A stretch of DNA of 37,230 bases from Aquisalimonas sp. (GTDB lineage Bacteria; Pseudomonadota; Gammaproteobacteria; Nitrococcales; Aquisalimonadaceae). Where the stretch lies: positions 1-37,230 of the forward strand of contig NZ_SKOG01000064.1 in NCBI RefSeq assembly GCF_007120195.1. The letters are read 5' to 3'. The notes below the pieces were generated by a model. That model had not been told where the DNA came from and did not search any database. It was given only the letters and a program-made list of their open reading frames with translations. Both the position numbers and the translations under genes were made by a program. This document shows positions 12,614-21,251 of this stretch, piece by piece; position 1 is the first letter of the stretch; every line of letters starts with the position of its first letter.

Positions 12614-13255
12614 CTACCTTTGTTCTTTCAGCCAATGTTTGACAGTCTTCCGGCTTCGCCGTGAAACCATCTGCTGAGTGTTGACGTCCGACGGTTTCAG
12701 TCGGACGCCTTGCTCGCCATCCAATAACCGGAATACGCGGGAAGCGGCGATCGGATCATCCTCAGGCCCGTAAATCGCGATCGCTACAATCTCGATGGAT
12801 GTGACGCTGATCGCATCGAAGTCCAGGCAGTTCTCGTCCTCGGCCATTGGCAACCGACGATACCGACCAATTGTTTTTATGACGTCACGGAACGTGCCTA
12901 TATCCATGTAGTTGCCTGATTTCACGGGGCCTTGCAAGGTGCCCTGGCCCAGGCCAACGGGCCCCTCTTCACTGACCGGGGGCTTAAAATCGGTAATCGG
13001 CGCTGTGAACCGGCCCCGCTCCGTCTCCACGGTGCCGAAAATGTTCTCGATATGGATGGCCTCCTGGCTCATGTTGCTGAGCAGGCAGCGGGAGTCGAGT
13101 TCTGTCCCAAGGCCTTGGTTGATCACCAGCTTGGGCCGGCGCTGGCGGCGAAAATTGCTGAGCAGGAGCTGGGCGTAGAAAATCCACACAAACACGGTTG
13201 CAAGGCCTATAGCCACGTCGAAGACGTCTGCGTATTCCTCTAGCCACTCCAGCAT
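12614..13255 (-). CDS. membrane-anchored protein of unknown function
   Basis: A 213-residue protein with one N-terminal membrane segment (about residues 12-33, FDVAIGLATVFVWIFYAQLL) followed by a basic stop-transfer stretch RRQRRPK. The rest is soluble and most likely cytoplasmic by the positive-inside rule. The C-terminus is very basic (RRSRKTVKHWLKEQR). No known family is recognised. AAGG lies eight bases before the start. It overlaps the DUF892 gene upstream by 16 bases, so translation may be coupled and the two products may work together under stress. It ends in TAG. Confidence 0.65.
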   Translation of the reverse strand: MLEWLEEYADVFDVAIGLATVFVWIFYAQLLLSNFRRQRRPKLVINQGLGTELDSRCLLSNMSQEAIHIENIFGTVETERGRFTAPITDFKPPVSEEGPVGLGQGTLQGPVKSGNYMDIGTFRDVIKTIGRYRRLPMAEDENCLDFDAISVTSIEIVAIAIYGPEDDPIAASRVFRLLDGEQGVRLKPSDVNTQQMVSRRSRKTVKHWLKEQR

Positions 13256-13878
13256 GAATCAGGCCTTGTTACCGTTGTGAAAAAACCGGTGCGCGGAGAT
13301 CCCCGCCATTTGGTCACTACGCCGAGCGTGTAATCGGCTGCGCTGTGCGCGAACGCGACTTCGCTGGCACAGGGTCGTGAGGCCGGATAGACATACGATT
13401 CCGCGACTTCGGTCAACTTCGAGTCGGCGCTTTTTCCCTTATCCGGGGTGGCCTGGAGTTGTTCGCCAGTCTGGTTTTGCCCGAGCTGCTGAGCCAGGGT
13501 CGGCGCCGTACAATAACCCGCGATCTCGTAAAGCTCGATCTGTTGAGCGGCTGCGATCAAACCAGCATCCCGCAACGAGTCGTCGCCTTTGGCCCCGATC
13601 ATCTCTTCGCCTTTGCTGATCAGGCTCTTCATTGCCTCGCCGGTCTCGCGTTCAGGCTGCTTGCCGAGGCCCATGAAGATCCCGTCAAGCCACTCGATCT
13701 GTTTTTCCGAATCTTTCAGGTGGTCATCGAAAAGGCTACAAAGTTTGTCCGAGTTTGCTGCATCAATCGTTTTCTGGAGTGCTTTAGTAAGGCGTTTCTC
13801 GGCGTCGTAAAAGTCTTGCAACTGATGCATGAAAAGATCATCCATGGATTCGAAATTCTCTGATCCCATGATTCCCAT
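13240..13878 (-). CDS. DUF892/YciF-type ferritin-like protein with unusual C-terminal extension
   Basis: A 212-residue protein. Residues 8-165 match the YciF/DUF892 four-helix family: SMDDLFMHQLQDFYDAEKRL, then EKQIEWLDGIF, DAGLIAAAQQIELYEIAGY and a closing helix ADSKLTEVAES. Glu and His residues at helix positions typical of a di-metal site are present. YciF proteins respond to osmotic and oxidative stress, but their reaction is not settled. The usual length is about 165-170 residues. Here some 45 extra residues of unlike composition follow YVYPAS and run 16 bases into the next gene. A frameshift that removed the normal stop is the simplest explanation. Start 13878 has GGGA upstream; Met 13869 is the alternative. 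Confidence 0.78.
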   Translation of the reverse strand: MGIMGSENFESMDDLFMHQLQDFYDAEKRLTKALQKTIDAANSDKLCSLFDDHLKDSEKQIEWLDGIFMGLGKQPERETGEAMKSLISKGEEMIGAKGDDSLRDAGLIAAAQQIELYEIAGYCTAPTLAQQLGQNQTGEQLQATPDKGKSADSKLTEVAESYVYPASRPCASEVAFAHSAADYTLGVVTKWRGSPRTGFFTTVTRPDSCWSG

Positions 13879-15271: not shown

Positions 15272-15757
15272 TTATGTGCAATCATTGCCTTCCACCGGAA
15301 TATCAAAATGCAGCACATCTTCTCGGGTCCCAAGCTTGGTATAAAGGGCAATGGCCGCTTCGTCTTCAACCCCGGTATCGGCTTGCACGAAGATGACGTA
15401 GGCTCCACGCGAAGCCGCGATGTGCTTGAGTTCTTGTATCAACGCAGTCGCGATTCCTTGGCGCCTGTGCTCTTCCCTGACAGCCAAATCATAGATATAG
15501 ATCTCACTGCGCGGCTGCTCAAACTTCTTCAATTCATAAGCAGCGATGCCCCCGACGACCGCACTGCCCTTCAATGCGACAAGTGCGATGAAATAGTCAC
15601 CGCCGAGCAATCGCCGCATATATCCCGCATCAGGCCGGTTACTGACGTAGGTCTCGACCTCGTCGAACACCTCACCGAAGGTCAGCAACAGCGCATCCAT
15701 CAGCACCAAGTCATCTGGAGTGAGCTGTCGAATTGTGCAGTCAACTTGCGTCGACAC
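15272..15757 (-). CDS. GNAT acetyltransferase of the aminoglycoside AAC(3)-I family
   Basis: A 161-residue cytoplasmic GNAT enzyme. The GTG start at 15757 is chosen because a perfect AGGAGG lies five bases upstream. The core [16 protein letters not shown], then [13 protein letters not shown] (acetyl-CoA-binding RRQGIA at 98-103), and [16 protein letters not shown] are the hallmark stretches of AAC(3)-I enzymes such as the integron-borne AacC1. Those acetylate the 3-amino group of gentamicin-class aminoglycosides and are about 154-177 residues long. I recall these motifs from the family; no search was run. Whether this member accepts aminoglycosides or is an environmental relative is open. It is transcribed away from the ether-lipid operon, with no integron attC or IS beside it. 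Confidence 0.85.
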
Positions 15758-16185
15758 CGTTTCCTCCTGGGCCACAGAACAGGGTTTCTGCTCGCCGGTG
15801 CTCGCCCTAGCGTAGCCTTCCCCGTCTGTGTAGGGGATGCCACAAGTGCGTCGCCGAACCCGATGCAAGCTCAGCTACACCGTCCCCATGACCCCGTGTC
15901 GTCCACCTACCATCCATTCATAATGACCCGCACTTGGACGCGGATCGAGCAAAAGGCCGCGCCGCCTCAGCGGCTGACGCCGCTGGCTCGCCGTTGCGCC
16001 CGTGCAACCAATATGTGACTATCGCTACGCGTCGCATTTGTGCGAACCGTTAGATACCATTGATCCGGAAATCGCCCCCATTCGACGAACCCGTTTGCGC
16101 ACGATGGAGGCATTCCTGTGATGATGGCGCGCGCGGAGCACATCCCCGCGCCGGCGCAATTGATTCGCCGACGAGGCCGCCGCTC
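15758..16185. other. Divergent intergenic region between acetyltransferase and ether-lipid operon
   Basis: It must hold the promoters of both the minus-strand acetyltransferase gene and the plus-strand lipid operon. A plus-strand frame runs through it into the reductase gene, but its codons before 16186 lack family resemblance. No clear promoter boxes or operator were found. Confidence 0.4.
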
Positions 16186-18546
16186 ATGCGCGACATGATG
16201 GGGTATTATGAAGGCCAGACCCTGTTGCTGACCGGCGCAACGGGTTTCCTCGGCAAGGTGCTGCTCGAAACGATCCTCAGGAACTTGCCTGAGGTGAAGA
16301 AGATCTACGTTCTCCTGCGGCCGCGCGGTAACGGCTCGGCCCAGAACGGGTCGTCTTGGGAAGCGCTGCAAGCGCGCATTCTCAACACATCGGCCTTCGA
16401 GCGGCTACGCGAGCGCCACGGTCGCGGCTTCGATGCCTTCGCCAAGCAACGCCTCGAGCCAGTCGCCGGCGATCTGTCCCGGCCCGCGCTCGGACTGGAG
16501 CCGGCGGTCTACGCGAGGATCCGCGGCGAGGTCGATGTAGTGATCAACAGCGGTGCGCTCGCGGTCTTCGACGCGCCCCTCGATGAGGCGCTGCAATCCA
16601 ACGCACTGGCACCGCTACGCGCGCTGGAACTGGCTCAGGGAGCCCCGCGCGCACCGCTTTTCGTACACGTCTCCACCTGCTACGTGAACAATGCCGCGGG
16701 GCCGGCATTCGAAACGCCGCTAGACCCGCGCACCGCCTCGGCGTCGGCGCCGAGCGGCAACGCGCCGCTCGACGCGGAGCGCGAGGTCGAAGCACTGCTG
16801 GAGCAGAGCGAGCAACTGCGCAACGGCTCGCACAGTCTGGAAACAGCTCGCAAACGTCTCGTCGACCACGGTCTACGCCGCGCGCGGGCCTGGGGCTGGA
16901 ACGACACCTACACGTTCACCAAGGCCCTAGGCGAGCAACTCCTTGAGCGCCATCGCGGCAACGTGCCGACGTTGATCCTGCGGCCCTCCATCATCGAGAG
17001 CGCGCTGCGCACACCGGCCCCCGGTTGGATTGACGGCTTTCGGATGATGGATCCGGTCATTGTTGGTATGGGCCGCGGCTTGATCACGGAGTTTCCCGGC
17101 AACCCTGATACCGTCTTGGACGTGGTCCCGGTCGACGCCGTGGCCAATGCGCTATTGATGGCCGTCCCGTCGGTGCACAGCCAGAGCGGGCGCGAGATCT
17201 TTCATGTGGCCACCGGGATGGAACGCCCGCTGCTGGTCAAGGACTGCCACACGCTGCTGGCAGACTACTTCGAGCGCTACCCGTTGCGGCGCAACGGTGA
17301 AAAACGGCGCTTGCCCGACTTCGCCTTCCCCGATCTCGACGACTACTTGCTGCGTTTGGACTATCGCTATCTCTACCCTCTGGCTGCGTTGGAGCCAATG
17401 CTCACGCCCCTTGCGCGTACCACCTGGGGCCGGCGCAAGGGCATCGAGGTCAAGGCCCGGCGGAGCCGGCTGCAGCGGCTGCGACACATCGCCGCCACCT
17501 ATGGCCGCTACGCGGCCGGACGCACACGCTTCGTCAACTTCAATACCAAGGCCCTGTGGGACGGGCTTTCGGAACGCGAACGCGAACTCTTTCCCTTCTG
17601 CTTGGAAGGCCTCGACTGGCGGCGTTACCTGCACGAGGTGCACCTGCCAGGTATCGAAAACTATCTGCTACATATGCACCGCACCCAGCCCAAGCCCTTG
17701 GACGCGCACGTGCCCCGGCGCGTGACTGCCCGAGAGCGCGCCGGCGGGGACGCGGGCAAGAACGGCGCGCGGTGGGGCAAGGCATCTCAGCTCATCGCGC
17801 TAACGCGCAAGGACCCGAGCATAAGCCTGCACGGCTGGCGAGCCCCTGGCTACCTGCGCGCGCTCAAGCGCACCAACTTCGCAATGATGCGCATGGTTGC
17901 CAAGCACTACCTGAGATTGCAGTGCAGCGGCTGGCAGCACGTGCCGCAGAAGGGCCCGTTCATCGTGGCCGCCAACCATAGCAGTCACATCGACACGGGC
18001 GTGTTGCTCTGCGCGCTCGGCTCCCGCGCCCACAAGGTTCACCCGATCGCCGCCGCCGACTATTGGTTCCGCAACCGAATGCTCAGCTGGGTATTGCATG
18101 CGAGCCTCGAAGCGATCCCCTTCGATCGCTGGTCTCGGAACATCCCCAAATCCATCTCGCTCCCCGTCGAGGTGCTGCGCCAGGGTCACTCGCTGATCTT
18201 CTACCCCGAGGGCTCGCGTAGCCCCGACGGCGAGATGCAGCCGTTCAAGAACACCGTCGGGTTGCTGGTACTGGCCTCGGGGGCACCGATCTTGCCGGCG
18301 TATGTATCGGGCACCCATCAGGCCCTGCCCAAGGGCAAGGCCTTGATGCGACCTCATCCCGTGCGGGTGCATTTCGGGCCGGTGACGCCCGTCGAGCCGT
18401 ATCTGCAGCGGTTGGAAACCGAGACGGTCTCTAGCGTCACCCGCGGTCTGGCGCAGGACGCGCGGGCCAAGGTGGCAAAGCTCAAAGAATATGACGATGA
18501 TGAAACCATGCGGGTCTACCGCACTGATAATCCCAGGGCTCCCTGA
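16186..18546 (+). CDS. fatty acyl reductase fused to PlsC-type acyltransferase
   Basis: A 786-residue two-part enzyme. Residues 1-500 form an alcohol-forming fatty acyl-CoA reductase: NADP-binding TGATGFLG (16-23), a VSTCYV stretch with Ser163, the catalytic pair Tyr242-x-x-x-Lys246 in YTFTK, then a FAR_C-like region. Residues about 560-786 are a glycerophospholipid acyltransferase with motif I NHSSHID (His598, Asp603), motif III FYPEGSRS (672-679) and motif IV PAYV. Both catalytic sets are intact. The start at 16186 has GAGG nine bases upstream and lies just before the fold. With the two next genes it suggests that the reductase makes the fatty alcohol and the acyltransferase makes acyl-DHAP for ether-lipid synthesis. 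Wax-ester or ordinary phospholipid synthesis is the alternative. Confidence 0.85.
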   Translation: MRDMMGYYEGQTLLLTGATGFLGKVLLETILRNLPEVKKIYVLLRPRGNGSAQNGSSWEALQARILNTSAFERLRERHGRGFDAFAKQRLEPVAGDLSRPALGLEPAVYARIRGEVDVVINSGALAVFDAPLDEALQSNALAPLRALELAQGAPRAPLFVHVSTCYVNNAAGPAFETPLDPRTASASAPSGNAPLDAEREVEALLEQSEQLRNGSHSLETARKRLVDHGLRRARAWGWNDTYTFTKALGEQLLERHRGNVPTLILRPSIIESALRTPAPGWIDGFRMMDPVIVGMGRGLITEFPGNPDTVLDVVPVDAVANALLMAVPSVHSQSGREIFHVATGMERPLLVKDCHTLLADYFERYPLRRNGEKRRLPDFAFPDLDDYLLRLDYRYLYPLAALEPMLTPLARTTWGRRKGIEVKARRSRLQRLRHIAATYGRYAAGRTRFVNFNTKALWDGLSERERELFPFCLEGLDWRRYLHEVHLPGIENYLLHMHRTQPKPLDAHVPRRVTARERAGGDAGKNGARWGKASQLIALTRKDPSISLHGWRAPGYLRALKRTNFAMMRMVAKHYLRLQCSGWQHVPQKGPFIVAANHSSHIDTGVLLCALGSRAHKVHPIAAADYWFRNRMLSWVLHASLEAIPFDRWSRNIPKSISLPVEVLRQGHSLIFYPEGSRSPDGEMQPFKNTVGLLVLASGAPILPAYVSGTHQALPKGKALMRPHPVRVHFGPVTPVEPYLQRLETETVSSVTRGLAQDARAKVAKLKEYDDDETMRVYRTDNPRAP

Positions 18547-18570
18547 ACCGTCAACACGCAAGGAGCCGCT

Positions 18571-18636
18571 TTGGCCATCACTCTGACGACTGTGGTCCTG
18601 CTCGCAGTGGCCGCTGGTTGGGCAATCGTGCCCTGA
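18571..18636 (+). CDS. 21-residue membrane peptide, or severed leader of the next gene
   Basis: A TTG start at 18571 has AAGGAG five bases upstream, the best ribosome binding site of this operon. It encodes 21 mostly hydrophobic residues (ITLTTVVLLAVAAGWAIVP) and ends in TGA at 18634. The frame is the same as that of the FAD enzyme whose start is seven codons further on, and no stop other than this TGA separates them. Most likely the peptide is the membrane anchor of the FAD enzyme, cut off by a nonsense change such as TGG to TGA; it could also be an independent small membrane peptide. Confidence 0.5.
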   Translation: MAITLTTVVLLAVAAGWAIVP

Positions 18637-18654
18637 GACCGACGGGGACGCACC

Positions 18655-20415
18655 TTGGAAACCTCCTACGACCCGGCGCCGGGCGAGCGCTTCGAGCATT
18701 TGTGGGGTTATCGGGACACGCGCTTCGAGTTCTGTGGCGAGACCACGGTGCGCGTGACCGGCGACCGCTACCCGCTCTCGGGCGCGCCGCTGCCCCACTT
18801 CATCCCATTCGCCGAAAAGATCCTCGGCGTGGCGCTGCGCCCGCAGGAGCTGGGCAGCACCAAGGCCCCTCCGACGTTGCCCCTGCCCGAGCGCCACAGC
18901 GGGTTTCTCGAAGACCTGGAGCGGCATTTCGACGCCGGGCAAATGAGCGCCGAGGACCACCAGCGCCTGTCCCACAGTCACGGCCAGCTCAGCGTCGACG
19001 AGGTCTATCGCATCGTCTCCGGCCGCGCTCCCGAGCGGGTCGTCGATCTTGTCGTCTACCCGGAGAGTGAGGCGCAACTCCTGGAGCTCGTGCGCCTGGC
19101 CGACGACCACGGCGTTGTGCTTATCCCCTATGGCGGCGGTACCAACGTCTCCGGGGCTTTGCTCTGCCCGGGGGGGGAGCGGCGCATGGTCGTGTCGGTG
19201 AACATGAGCCGCCTGAATCGTATTCTCGAGCTGGACCGGGCGAACAATCGGGCTGTGGTCCAGGCCGGGATCACTGGCAAGGAGCTGGAACAACAATTGG
19301 CCGAGGCGGGGCTGACCTGCGGCCATATCCCCGACAGCGTGGAGCTTTCCACCCTCGGCGGCTGGATCGCCACCTATGCCAGCGGCATGAAGCGCAATCG
19401 CTACGGGAACATCGAAGACATCGTGCTCGATGCCACACTGATCAGCCCACGCGGCGAGCTGCGGACAGTGCCAGTGAACCCCCGGGCCTCTCTCGGGATC
19501 GATCCGCGCCGGTTGCTCTTCGGTAGCGAGGGGTGCCTGGGTGTGATCACCCGCGCGGTCATCCAGGTCCATCCCCTGCCAGCGGTGCGCCGCTATGCTT
19601 CGTTCGTGTTCGCCGACCTGTCCGCCGGGCTCGCCTTCCTGCGCGCAGTGCAAGGCAGCGCGGTGCGCCCGGCGAGCATACGCTTGGCCAGCAATATCGA
19701 GTTTCGCCTCGGCCAGGCGCTCAAGCGCGAGGAAAGCCGCAGTCAGGCCCTTCTGTCCCGGCTCAAGAGCTTCTACCTGCTGCGGGTCAAGGGCTTCGAC
19801 CCGCAGCAGCTGGTCGCCGGCACGCTGGTGCTCGAGGGAAGCCCTCAGGAGGTGCGCCACCAATGGCGCGTGCTGGCGCGACTGCTGCGCGACATGGGTG
19901 GGGTCTCCGCTGGCGCCGAGGCAGGCCGGCGAGGCTACCAGCTGACCTTCGCCATCGCCTACATCCGCGATTTCCTCAGCCGCTTCGACATTCTTGGCGA
20001 GACCTTCGAGACCTCGGCGCTCTGGGATCGTGTGCCGGCGATCACCGACGCGGTGGAGCGAGAGTTGCACGAGCAATGCCGCGCCCACGGTGTCCCCGGA
20101 CGGCCGTATCTGTCGTTTCGCGTCTCCCAGAGCTATCACACCGGGGCCTGCATCTACTTCACCATGGGTTTCTCGGGGCGTGGCCTGGAGCGCGCCGATG
20201 AGATCTACCAACGCATCGAGCATCGCCTGCGGGAGGTCATTCTCGAGCAGGGGGGCTCGCTGTCGCATCATCACGGCATCGGCAAGGTACGCCAAGCATT
20301 CGTGCCGCGCGTGCACTCGCCGGAGGCGATCGGCGCCCTGCGGGCGGTCAAACAGCGCTTGGATCCCAACAACGTCTTCGGCGCCGGAAACAACTGCTTC
20401 GGGGGCGATTCGTGA
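18655..20415 (+). CDS. FAD-linked oxidase, probable alkyl-dihydroxyacetonephosphate synthase
   Basis: A 586-residue protein of the FAD-binding PCMH/oxidase superfamily. The FAD domain shows PYGGGTNVSGA (158-168), LSTLGGWIAT then YASGMKRNRYGNIED (to 255), and SEGCLGVIT (291-299). The stretch YHTGACIYF (Tyr494) and the triple-His motif SLSHHHGIGK (538-540) are the AGPS hallmarks, where the Tyr and His residues work in the exchange of an acyl for an alkyl group on DHAP; DPNNVFG near the end is also AGPS-like. D-lactate or glycolate oxidases share the fold but usually lack the triple-His motif. The TTG start at 18655 has only a weak GGGGACG before it. The real start may be TTG 18571, with a TGA between. 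It overlaps the next gene by four bases. Confidence 0.85.
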   Translation: METSYDPAPGERFEHLWGYRDTRFEFCGETTVRVTGDRYPLSGAPLPHFIPFAEKILGVALRPQELGSTKAPPTLPLPERHSGFLEDLERHFDAGQMSAEDHQRLSHSHGQLSVDEVYRIVSGRAPERVVDLVVYPESEAQLLELVRLADDHGVVLIPYGGGTNVSGALLCPGGERRMVVSVNMSRLNRILELDRANNRAVVQAGITGKELEQQLAEAGLTCGHIPDSVELSTLGGWIATYASGMKRNRYGNIEDIVLDATLISPRGELRTVPVNPRASLGIDPRRLLFGSEGCLGVITRAVIQVHPLPAVRRYASFVFADLSAGLAFLRAVQGSAVRPASIRLASNIEFRLGQALKREESRSQALLSRLKSFYLLRVKGFDPQQLVAGTLVLEGSPQEVRHQWRVLARLLRDMGGVSAGAEAGRRGYQLTFAIAYIRDFLSRFDILGETFETSALWDRVPAITDAVERELHEQCRAHGVPGRPYLSFRVSQSYHTGACIYFTMGFSGRGLERADEIYQRIEHRLREVILEQGGSLSHHHGIGKVRQAFVPRVHSPEAIGALRAVKQRLDPNNVFGAGNNCFGGDS

Positions 20416-21251
20416 GCCGAGCGCCGCAGGCCGAGGCGTTCGCGAACCGGGCGGTGGTGGTCACCGGCGCCTCCTCCGGGCTGGGCGCCTCTTTGGCCGC
20501 CGCGCTTGCCGGCGCCGGCGCCAACCTCGCGCTCTCGGGGCGCTGCGAGCAGCGCCTGGAGGCGGTGGCGGCGCGCTGCCGGGAGGCCGGTGGCGAAGCG
20601 CTCGTGGTGCCCGGTGACCTCTCGATCCCGGCGTGCGGGGCCGAGCTGGTCTCCACGGCCGTCGCCCGCTTCGGCCGCCTGGACATGCTGCTCGCCTGCG
20701 CTGGCATGAGCATGTGGAGCCGCTTCGACGAGCTGCACGACCCGGATGCGCTGCGGCGACTTATGGATGCCAACTACTGGGCGCTGGTACAGCCGAGCTA
20801 CCATGCCCTGCCCCATCTCAAGAAGAGCGCCGGCATCCTGGTCGCCGTCTCCTCGATCCAGGGCAAGGTGGGCGTCCCGTACCACACCGGCTACGCTGCC
20901 TCCAAGCACGCCGTGCAAGGGTTCTGCGATTCGCTGCGCAGCGAGCTGCGCGCTAGCGGCGTAGACGTGCTCACGGTGTTGGTCCATTGGATCCGCGGCA
21001 CACGGCTGCGCGAGCGCGCCCTGGGCCCGAACGGCCGCGCCCAAGGCGAGCGCGCCGCCCGCCATGGCGCTTCCGCGCTGTCTCTCGAGGTCGCCACGCG
21101 GGAGATCCTGCAAGCGGCGGCTCGGCGCAAGCCCCGGCTCTACCTCCCCGCCAAACTGCGCCTGCTGGCGCTGCTGGCAGAACTCTCGCCGCGGCTCGCC
21201 GAACGGCTGATCACGCGACACGTCGAGCGCGAGAACGCACGAACGAGCTGA
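20412..21251 (+). CDS. short-chain reductase, probable acyl/alkyl-DHAP reductase (DHRS7B-like)
   Basis: A 279-residue NADP(H)-type SDR. TGASSGLG (18-25) binds the cofactor, and VAVSSIQGKVGVPY with YAASKHAVQGF gives the Ser148, Tyr161, Lys165 catalytic set. The SSIQGK and YAASKHA-x-Q-x-F-x-D-x-LR-x-E pattern closely resembles human DHRS7B (PexRAP), the peroxisomal acyl/alkyl-DHAP reductase. The C-terminus has a hydrophobic stretch (PAKLRLLALLAELSPRLAER) that could lie on the membrane. The usual PG motif after the last strand is replaced by VHWIRG (191-196), which may alter cofactor binding. The GTG start overlaps the AGPS-like stop as GTGA, so translation is coupled. It is expected to reduce alkyl-DHAP to 1-alkyl-glycerol-3-phosphate. 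Confidence 0.85.
   Translation: MSRAPQAEAFANRAVVVTGASSGLGASLAAALAGAGANLALSGRCEQRLEAVAARCREAGGEALVVPGDLSIPACGAELVSTAVARFGRLDMLLACAGMSMWSRFDELHDPDALRRLMDANYWALVQPSYHALPHLKKSAGILVAVSSIQGKVGVPYHTGYAASKHAVQGFCDSLRSELRASGVDVLTVLVHWIRGTRLRERALGPNGRAQGERAARHGASALSLEVATREILQAAARRKPRLYLPAKLRLLALLAELSPRLAERLITRHVERENARTS

Follow-up and report, generated by a model that had tools for sequence, protein, structure and literature searches.

The window analysed here, a 37,230-nucleotide stretch of contig NZ_SKOG01000064.1 from an Aquisalimonas sp. genome (Gammaproteobacteria), contains three tightly packed genes within 16186–21251. They encode a fusion of a fatty acyl reductase (FAR) with a PlsC-class acyltransferase, a full-length alkyl-dihydroxyacetone-phosphate (alkyl-DHAP) synthase (AGPS), which is an FAD enzyme, and a short-chain dehydrogenase/reductase (SDR). 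The open reading frames (ORFs) have the order and positions given in the initial annotation of this DNA, which had described an ether-lipid operon built like the peroxisomal pathway. The GTG start of the SDR gene overlaps the AGPS stop codon by 4 bases (GTGA), and a short ORF encoding a membrane helix precedes AGPS (Table 1). In a check of composition for recent transfer, the G + C content at third codon positions (GC3) of the operon was 0.81–0.88, at the upper end of the range of the window's genes (0.62–0.88).

Table 1 Features of the ether-lipid locus in the window.
Feature	Coordinates	Strand	Description
FAR-PlsC fusion gene	16186..18546	+	786 aa; FAR at residues ~10–500, PlsC-class acyltransferase at residues ~565–740
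Membrane-helix ORF	18571..18636	+	21 codons; TTG start, in the AGPS frame, ended by TGA at 18634–18636
AGPS (alkyl-DHAP synthase) gene	18655..20415	+	586 aa; FAD enzyme; TTG start
SDR gene, proposed acyl/alkyl-DHAP reductase	20412..21251	+	279 aa; GTG start

Pfam matches in the fusion protein were NAD_binding_4 (2.4e-61), Sterile (3.5e-10), and Acyltransferase PF01553 (2.6e-20), and a phmmer search of the PDB identified rice FAR (DPW; 7eoz, 273 bits) and Thermotoga maritima PlsC (5kym, 58 bits) as the closest structures of the respective domains. The FAR part carries the GxxGxxG and YxxxK motifs (Y242-x3-K246), and the acyltransferase part carries NHSSHID (597–603) and FYPEGSRS, corresponding to the HX4D and EGTR/S blocks of the PlsC class; the motifs of both parts are invariant across seven homologues. 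An AlphaFold model of low confidence (pLDDT 61, pTM 0.44) matched 7eoz and 5kym in Foldseek. The earlier description of a FAR with a fused acyltransferase thus holds, but its GNPAT-like label does not, as the sequence lies on the PlsC side of PF01553. Membership of the GNPAT/PlsB class was ruled out by the PlsC-type NHSSHID block and by T. maritima PlsC being the closest structure; the HRSYxDF block of the PlsB side is absent, and the Pfam search of the fusion protein gave no match to GPAT_C. Since the domain is PlsC-like and not GNPAT-like, we infer DHAP acylation on functional grounds. The same genome encodes PlsY and six further PF01553 proteins, so that the fused domain is dispensable for ordinary lipids, and a 503-aa PlsB-like protein is encoded on contig C129.

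The second protein matched guinea-pig AGPS (4bby) with 460 bits over 564 residues (16–579), compared with 265 bits for Dictyostelium AGPS and 93 bits for glycolate oxidase. Its identity to the mammalian enzyme is 41%, and it comprises the Pfam domains FAD_binding_4 and FAD-oxidase_C with the motif SLSHHHGIGK. Residues R343, R438, T450, C499, Y501, and H538–540 align under guinea-pig R419, R515, S527, C576, Y578, and H615–617. The residues at guinea-pig R419, R515, Y578, and H615–617, which are catalytic in that enzyme, are identical in the window protein and in all full rows of an alignment of 62 AGPS sequences, whereas two GlcD-like paralogues from the same genome differ at these positions and keep only the last histidine. 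Two of the guinea-pig catalytic positions are the mutated sites of the solved variants 4bc7 and 4bca. An IQ-TREE phylogeny was rooted with the GlcD-like paralogues of the same genome and glycolate oxidase, and Dictyostelium AGPS was omitted owing to its very long branch. All AGPS sequences fell on one side of this tree with 100/100 support. The protein is therefore AGPS-like, as originally proposed, and it groups inside AGPS instead of branching with D-lactate or glycolate oxidases, the placement that had been named as refuting the proposal. Its assignment as an alkyl-DHAP synthase is secure at the sequence level, and the exchange of an acyl for an alkyl chain is its predicted activity.

The third protein has the SDR motifs TGASSGLG and S...YAASK, a Pfam SDR match, and 263 bits against NCBIfam NF004825 (cut-off 215). 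AGPS-linked SDRs of other phyla reached 333 bits, compared with 79 bits for the next-best SDR in the window's own genome, and the nearest solved structures are those of 11-beta-HSD1. Among the matches listed, an SDR of this type was found within 1 kb after AGPS in 37 of 71 testable loci from many phyla. FAR, AGPS, and reductase activities remain the best reading of the operon.

The short ORF upstream of AGPS has a good ribosome-binding site, AAGGAG, and encodes MAITLTTVVLLAVAAGWAIVP, a membrane helix with a hydropathy of 2.16, before its TGA codon; AGPS then starts at TTG 18655 after the sequence GGGGA. In position it corresponds to a helix at the N-terminus of AGPS relatives; AGPS itself begins with such a helix in 19 of the 83 related ORFs, among them those of another gammaproteobacterial genome, G375 (61% identical), and a Wenzhouxiangella metagenome-assembled genome (MAG; locus L012). 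Among the close relatives compared, no helix was present on AGPS of loci L015, L016, and L060. The TGA may be a genuine nonsense mutation by which AGPS is released from its membrane anchor, it may mark a split that leaves a separate helix peptide, or it may be an assembly error.

A pattern scan with one genome per species yielded at least 80 AGPS loci, and the locus counts given here are lower bounds. In the IQ-TREE phylogeny, the window AGPS falls in a group of at least eight members with full support, comprising the window, the Wenzhouxiangella MAG as its sister (support 99/97), G375, an Opitutales MAG, two Trueperaceae MAGs, a Phycisphaeraceae MAG, and a Hydrogenedentota MAG; a comparison of FAR domains recovered the same eight. 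The FAR-PlsC fusion lies upstream of AGPS in all eight loci, whose record titles name five phyla. The SDR gene follows AGPS in the window, in G375 (L009), in L013, L014, and L060, and in L015, where it is cut by the contig end. Within this group, L012 has no SDR gene beside AGPS, and the contig of L016 ends at that point. Pairwise identities in the group are 58–66% for AGPS, 44–57% for FAR-acyltransferase, and 42–60% for SDR. The flanking genes of the group loci have nothing in common except antisense shadows of the operon. The recurrence of the identical gene order in L009, L013, L014, L015, and L060 without shared flanks indicates that the three-gene arrangement is not due to chance.

AGPS was absent from 13 other genomes of the window's family and was present in 4 of 369 genomes of its class and in 1 of 299 genomes of its phylum, namely the window's own. 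A search of plasmids for AGPS gave only two distant Streptomyces matches (32–33%) and no named cultured carrier. All but one of the six named contigs that come from other records bear sample names from Kulunda soda lakes (CSSed, B1-Sed). One or more of the carriers may be mis-binned, since the majority are MAGs with short contigs; neither G375 nor the window's own contig of 37 kb depends on those bins. The linkage pattern fits an operon moving as a unit.

Other loci place different acyltransferases beside AGPS. In L058, L077, L089, and L090, FAR is fused to a GNPAT/PlsB-type domain and accompanied by an epimerase-family reductase, in agreement with the published description of Myxococcus xanthus MXAN_1676–1674. 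The genome G125 has a GNPAT-like gene linked to AGPS, with GPAT_C and the features of the PlsB side. A separate PlsC gene lies between FAR and AGPS in L052, the order PlsC/AGPS/SDR is found in L062 (Neomarinimicrobiota), and the gammaproteobacterial genome G082 encodes an 822-aa PlsC-AGPS fusion (L010:283–2751, minus strand; the same as L081). In Latescibacterota/Gemmatimonadota, a 650-aa protein is encoded between FAR and AGPS (L024:5872–7893), with homologues in L019, L025, L032, L033, L034, and L037. A Pfam search of the L024 protein gave zero matches; its C-terminal part contains HQSLLDH and IYPMGTT, and its model (pLDDT 70) matched PlsC 5kym in Foldseek (E 4e-4, probability 1.00), a clearer result than the 70% probability obtained by profile comparison with PlsC domains. 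Judging from the model, this protein is possibly a divergent PlsC-fold acyltransferase and a candidate for an undescribed DHAP acyltransferase family. The ties between acyltransferase and AGPS thus arise in several independent ways, and as acyltransferases of different classes occupy the slot beside AGPS, the simplest reading is that they supply acyl-DHAP, the AGPS substrate. In four actinobacterial loci (L055, L059, L061, and L085), which show a further architecture, the gene after AGPS encodes a fusion of FAR with a HAD-type hydrolase, as checked with Pfam on L055.

We propose, with a probability of about 0.8, that the window carries a self-contained operon for the synthesis of 1-O-alkyl-glycerol-3-phosphate (alkyl-G3P). 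In the proposed pathway, the FAR domain would produce a long-chain alcohol by reduction of acyl-CoA or acyl-ACP, and the fused PlsC-class domain would convert DHAP to 1-acyl-DHAP. AGPS would then exchange the acyl chain for the alcohol to give 1-alkyl-DHAP, whose ketone would be reduced by the SDR to 1-alkyl-G3P. Ordinary PlsC-type/PF01553 enzymes could acylate this product at sn-2 to give plasmanyl phospholipids, and the genome's PlsY would also serve in ordinary phospholipid synthesis. A search for CarF/PEDS1 (PF10520) gave no match in the window's genome and was positive in two genomes of a 150-genome sample of the phylum; without this enzyme the pathway should end at alkyl (plasmanyl) ethers, and plasmalogens are unexpected. 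In favour of the proposal, loss of the AGPS MXAN_1676 in M. xanthus reduces ether lipids, though only slightly (PMC9131029). The sequences show directly the identities of the genes, their intact motifs, their conserved linkage, and the lack of a PF10520 match; the expression of the operon and the substrate specificities of all its enzymes are what we infer, and the weakest link is that the PlsC-class domain would act on DHAP.

Several points weigh against this proposal. The usual reaction of PlsC-class enzymes is the sn-2 acylation of lysophosphatidate. The in-frame TGA removes the membrane helix from AGPS, which begins at a TTG codon, in an operon whose expression is presumed. ElbD of M. xanthus, which combines FAR, acyl-CoA synthetase (ACS), acyl carrier protein (ACP), and PlsC-like parts, was inactive as an acyltransferase in vitro (PMC9131029). 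Pontiella has an elbD homologue, but no ether lipids were detected in it, so that genes do not guarantee the product (PMC11868695).

The alternative that survives best, although we consider it unlikely, is that the fused PlsC domain acts like an AGPAT and acylates sn-2 of alkyl-G3P, with acyl-DHAP supplied by another enzyme such as the PlsB-like protein of contig C129 or PlsY. The PlsC class of the domain and the presence of that PlsB-like protein elsewhere in the genome would suit this role, but myxobacterial-type operons have a GNPAT-like domain in the same slot, G082 joins a PlsC domain directly to AGPS, and the sn-2 step is already covered by other PlsC-type genes of the genome. It is less probable still that the products are neutral or storage lipids, either alkyl-diacylglycerols or wax esters made from the FAR alcohol, with AGPS on a side branch. 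FAR enzymes also serve wax-ester synthesis, farA/fcrA genes are not bound to a single pathway (PMC11948995), and M. xanthus produces the alkyl triglyceride TG-1 (PMC9131029); however, no wax synthase lies within or adjoining the operon, and the linkage of AGPS with the SDR indicates the glycerophosphate branch. We regard as improbable a decaying or silent operon, in which the TGA at 18634 would be a lesion and the locus would no longer make ether lipids. The codon is in frame and the AGPS start that follows is a TTG, but each of the three proteins keeps its catalytic motifs intact, the GTGA overlap is retained, the genes stay together with helix-free AGPS in L015, L016, and L060, and the TGA may be a sequencing error in the assembly. 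A glycolate or D-lactate oxidase-type identity of the FAD protein was rejected with near certainty on bit scores, tree, and residue table: FAD_binding_4 and FAD-oxidase_C are common to both families and a GlcD-like match spans residues 133–352, but all GlcD models scored well under cut-off (154 bits vs 568), the GlcD-like paralogues of the genome fall outside the AGPS clade with full support, and the AGPS-specific residues are present.

A three-gene operon with this proposed set of activities is not without precedent. The published M. xanthus operon MXAN_1676–1674 has three genes, for AGPS, a FAR-GNPAT fusion, and a reductase, with the same activities (PMC9131029), and therefore the initial annotation's statement that it knew of no such operon does not hold for the general kind. 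AGPS homologues have also been reported from many bacterial phyla including Proteobacteria (PMC11868695). The two operons share AGPS, a FAR-acyltransferase fusion, an NAD(P)-dependent reductase, an aerobic host, and a proposed role in ether lipids (PMC9131029). The M. xanthus operon differs in having AGPS first, a GNPAT/PlsB-like acyltransferase, and a reductase of the epimerase/dehydratase family instead of an 11-beta-HSD-like SDR; its AGPS clade is distant from that of the window, and it works together with CarF and ElbD. The window operon is thus not of the M. xanthus type in gene order, acyltransferase class, reductase family, or AGPS clade. ElbD and the Elb cluster also join a FAR to a PlsC-like acyltransferase domain and yield alkyl ether lipids, but ElbD has extra acyl-CoA synthetase and ACP domains, which Pfam did not find in the window fusion, and does not need AGPS (PMC9131029). 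PlsA, of the anaerobic plasmalogen operon, and Ger likewise make bacterial ether lipids, but these unrelated proteins reduce an ester in the finished phospholipid (PMC9702350, PMC11868695).

With the mammalian peroxisomal pathway (FAR1, GNPAT, AGPS, and PexRAP/DHRS7B), the window would share the whole set of activities, and all AGPS catalytic residues are kept. The mammalian pathway differs in its acyltransferase class, its AGPS belongs to the myxobacterial-type clade, and PEDS1/CarF was not found in the window's genome. Ether-lipid genes are unlinked in animals. Guinea-pig AGPS branches with the AGPS of Myxococcota, Nitrospira, an Acidobacteria MAG, and G125 (99/99, on a long branch), away from the window clade, which tells against the special closeness to the peroxisomal pathway suggested earlier. 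This position may point to where the eukaryotic enzyme came from, and the comparison is relevant to how the eukaryotic pathway arose. In the open-access literature (subscription journals being outside the search), we found no description of the FAR-PlsC/AGPS/SDR arrangement, its spread, or a membrane-anchored AGPS. The arrangement appears to be an undescribed form of a known pathway, and the bacteria that carry it are scattered, unrelated, and in many cases from soda lakes.

Should these three genes prove sufficient, no other complete route to alkyl ether phospholipids would be as compact, and the DHAP-acylating step would have been recruited repeatedly from different acyltransferase classes. 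The operon would also name likely sources of the alkyl glycerol ethers of saline lake sediments. More tentatively, it may be a mobile, complete plasmanyl-lipid cassette, with a PlsC-class enzyme replacing GNPAT in DHAP acylation, that is exchanged from one phylum to another in soda lakes and other saline habitats, where alkyl ethers would aid membranes against high pH and salt.

Two other genes of the window, both on the minus strand, are worth noting. The gene at 15272–15868 encodes a GNAT acetyltransferase that passes the NCBIfam model for AAC(3)-I aminoglycoside acetyltransferases with 228 bits (cut-off 200), in a genome of environmental type; its GC3 of 0.62 is below that of its neighbours. 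In the DUF892 (YciF-like) protein encoded at 13240–13878, the final part no longer resembles the family, an indication of a frameshift close to the C-terminus.

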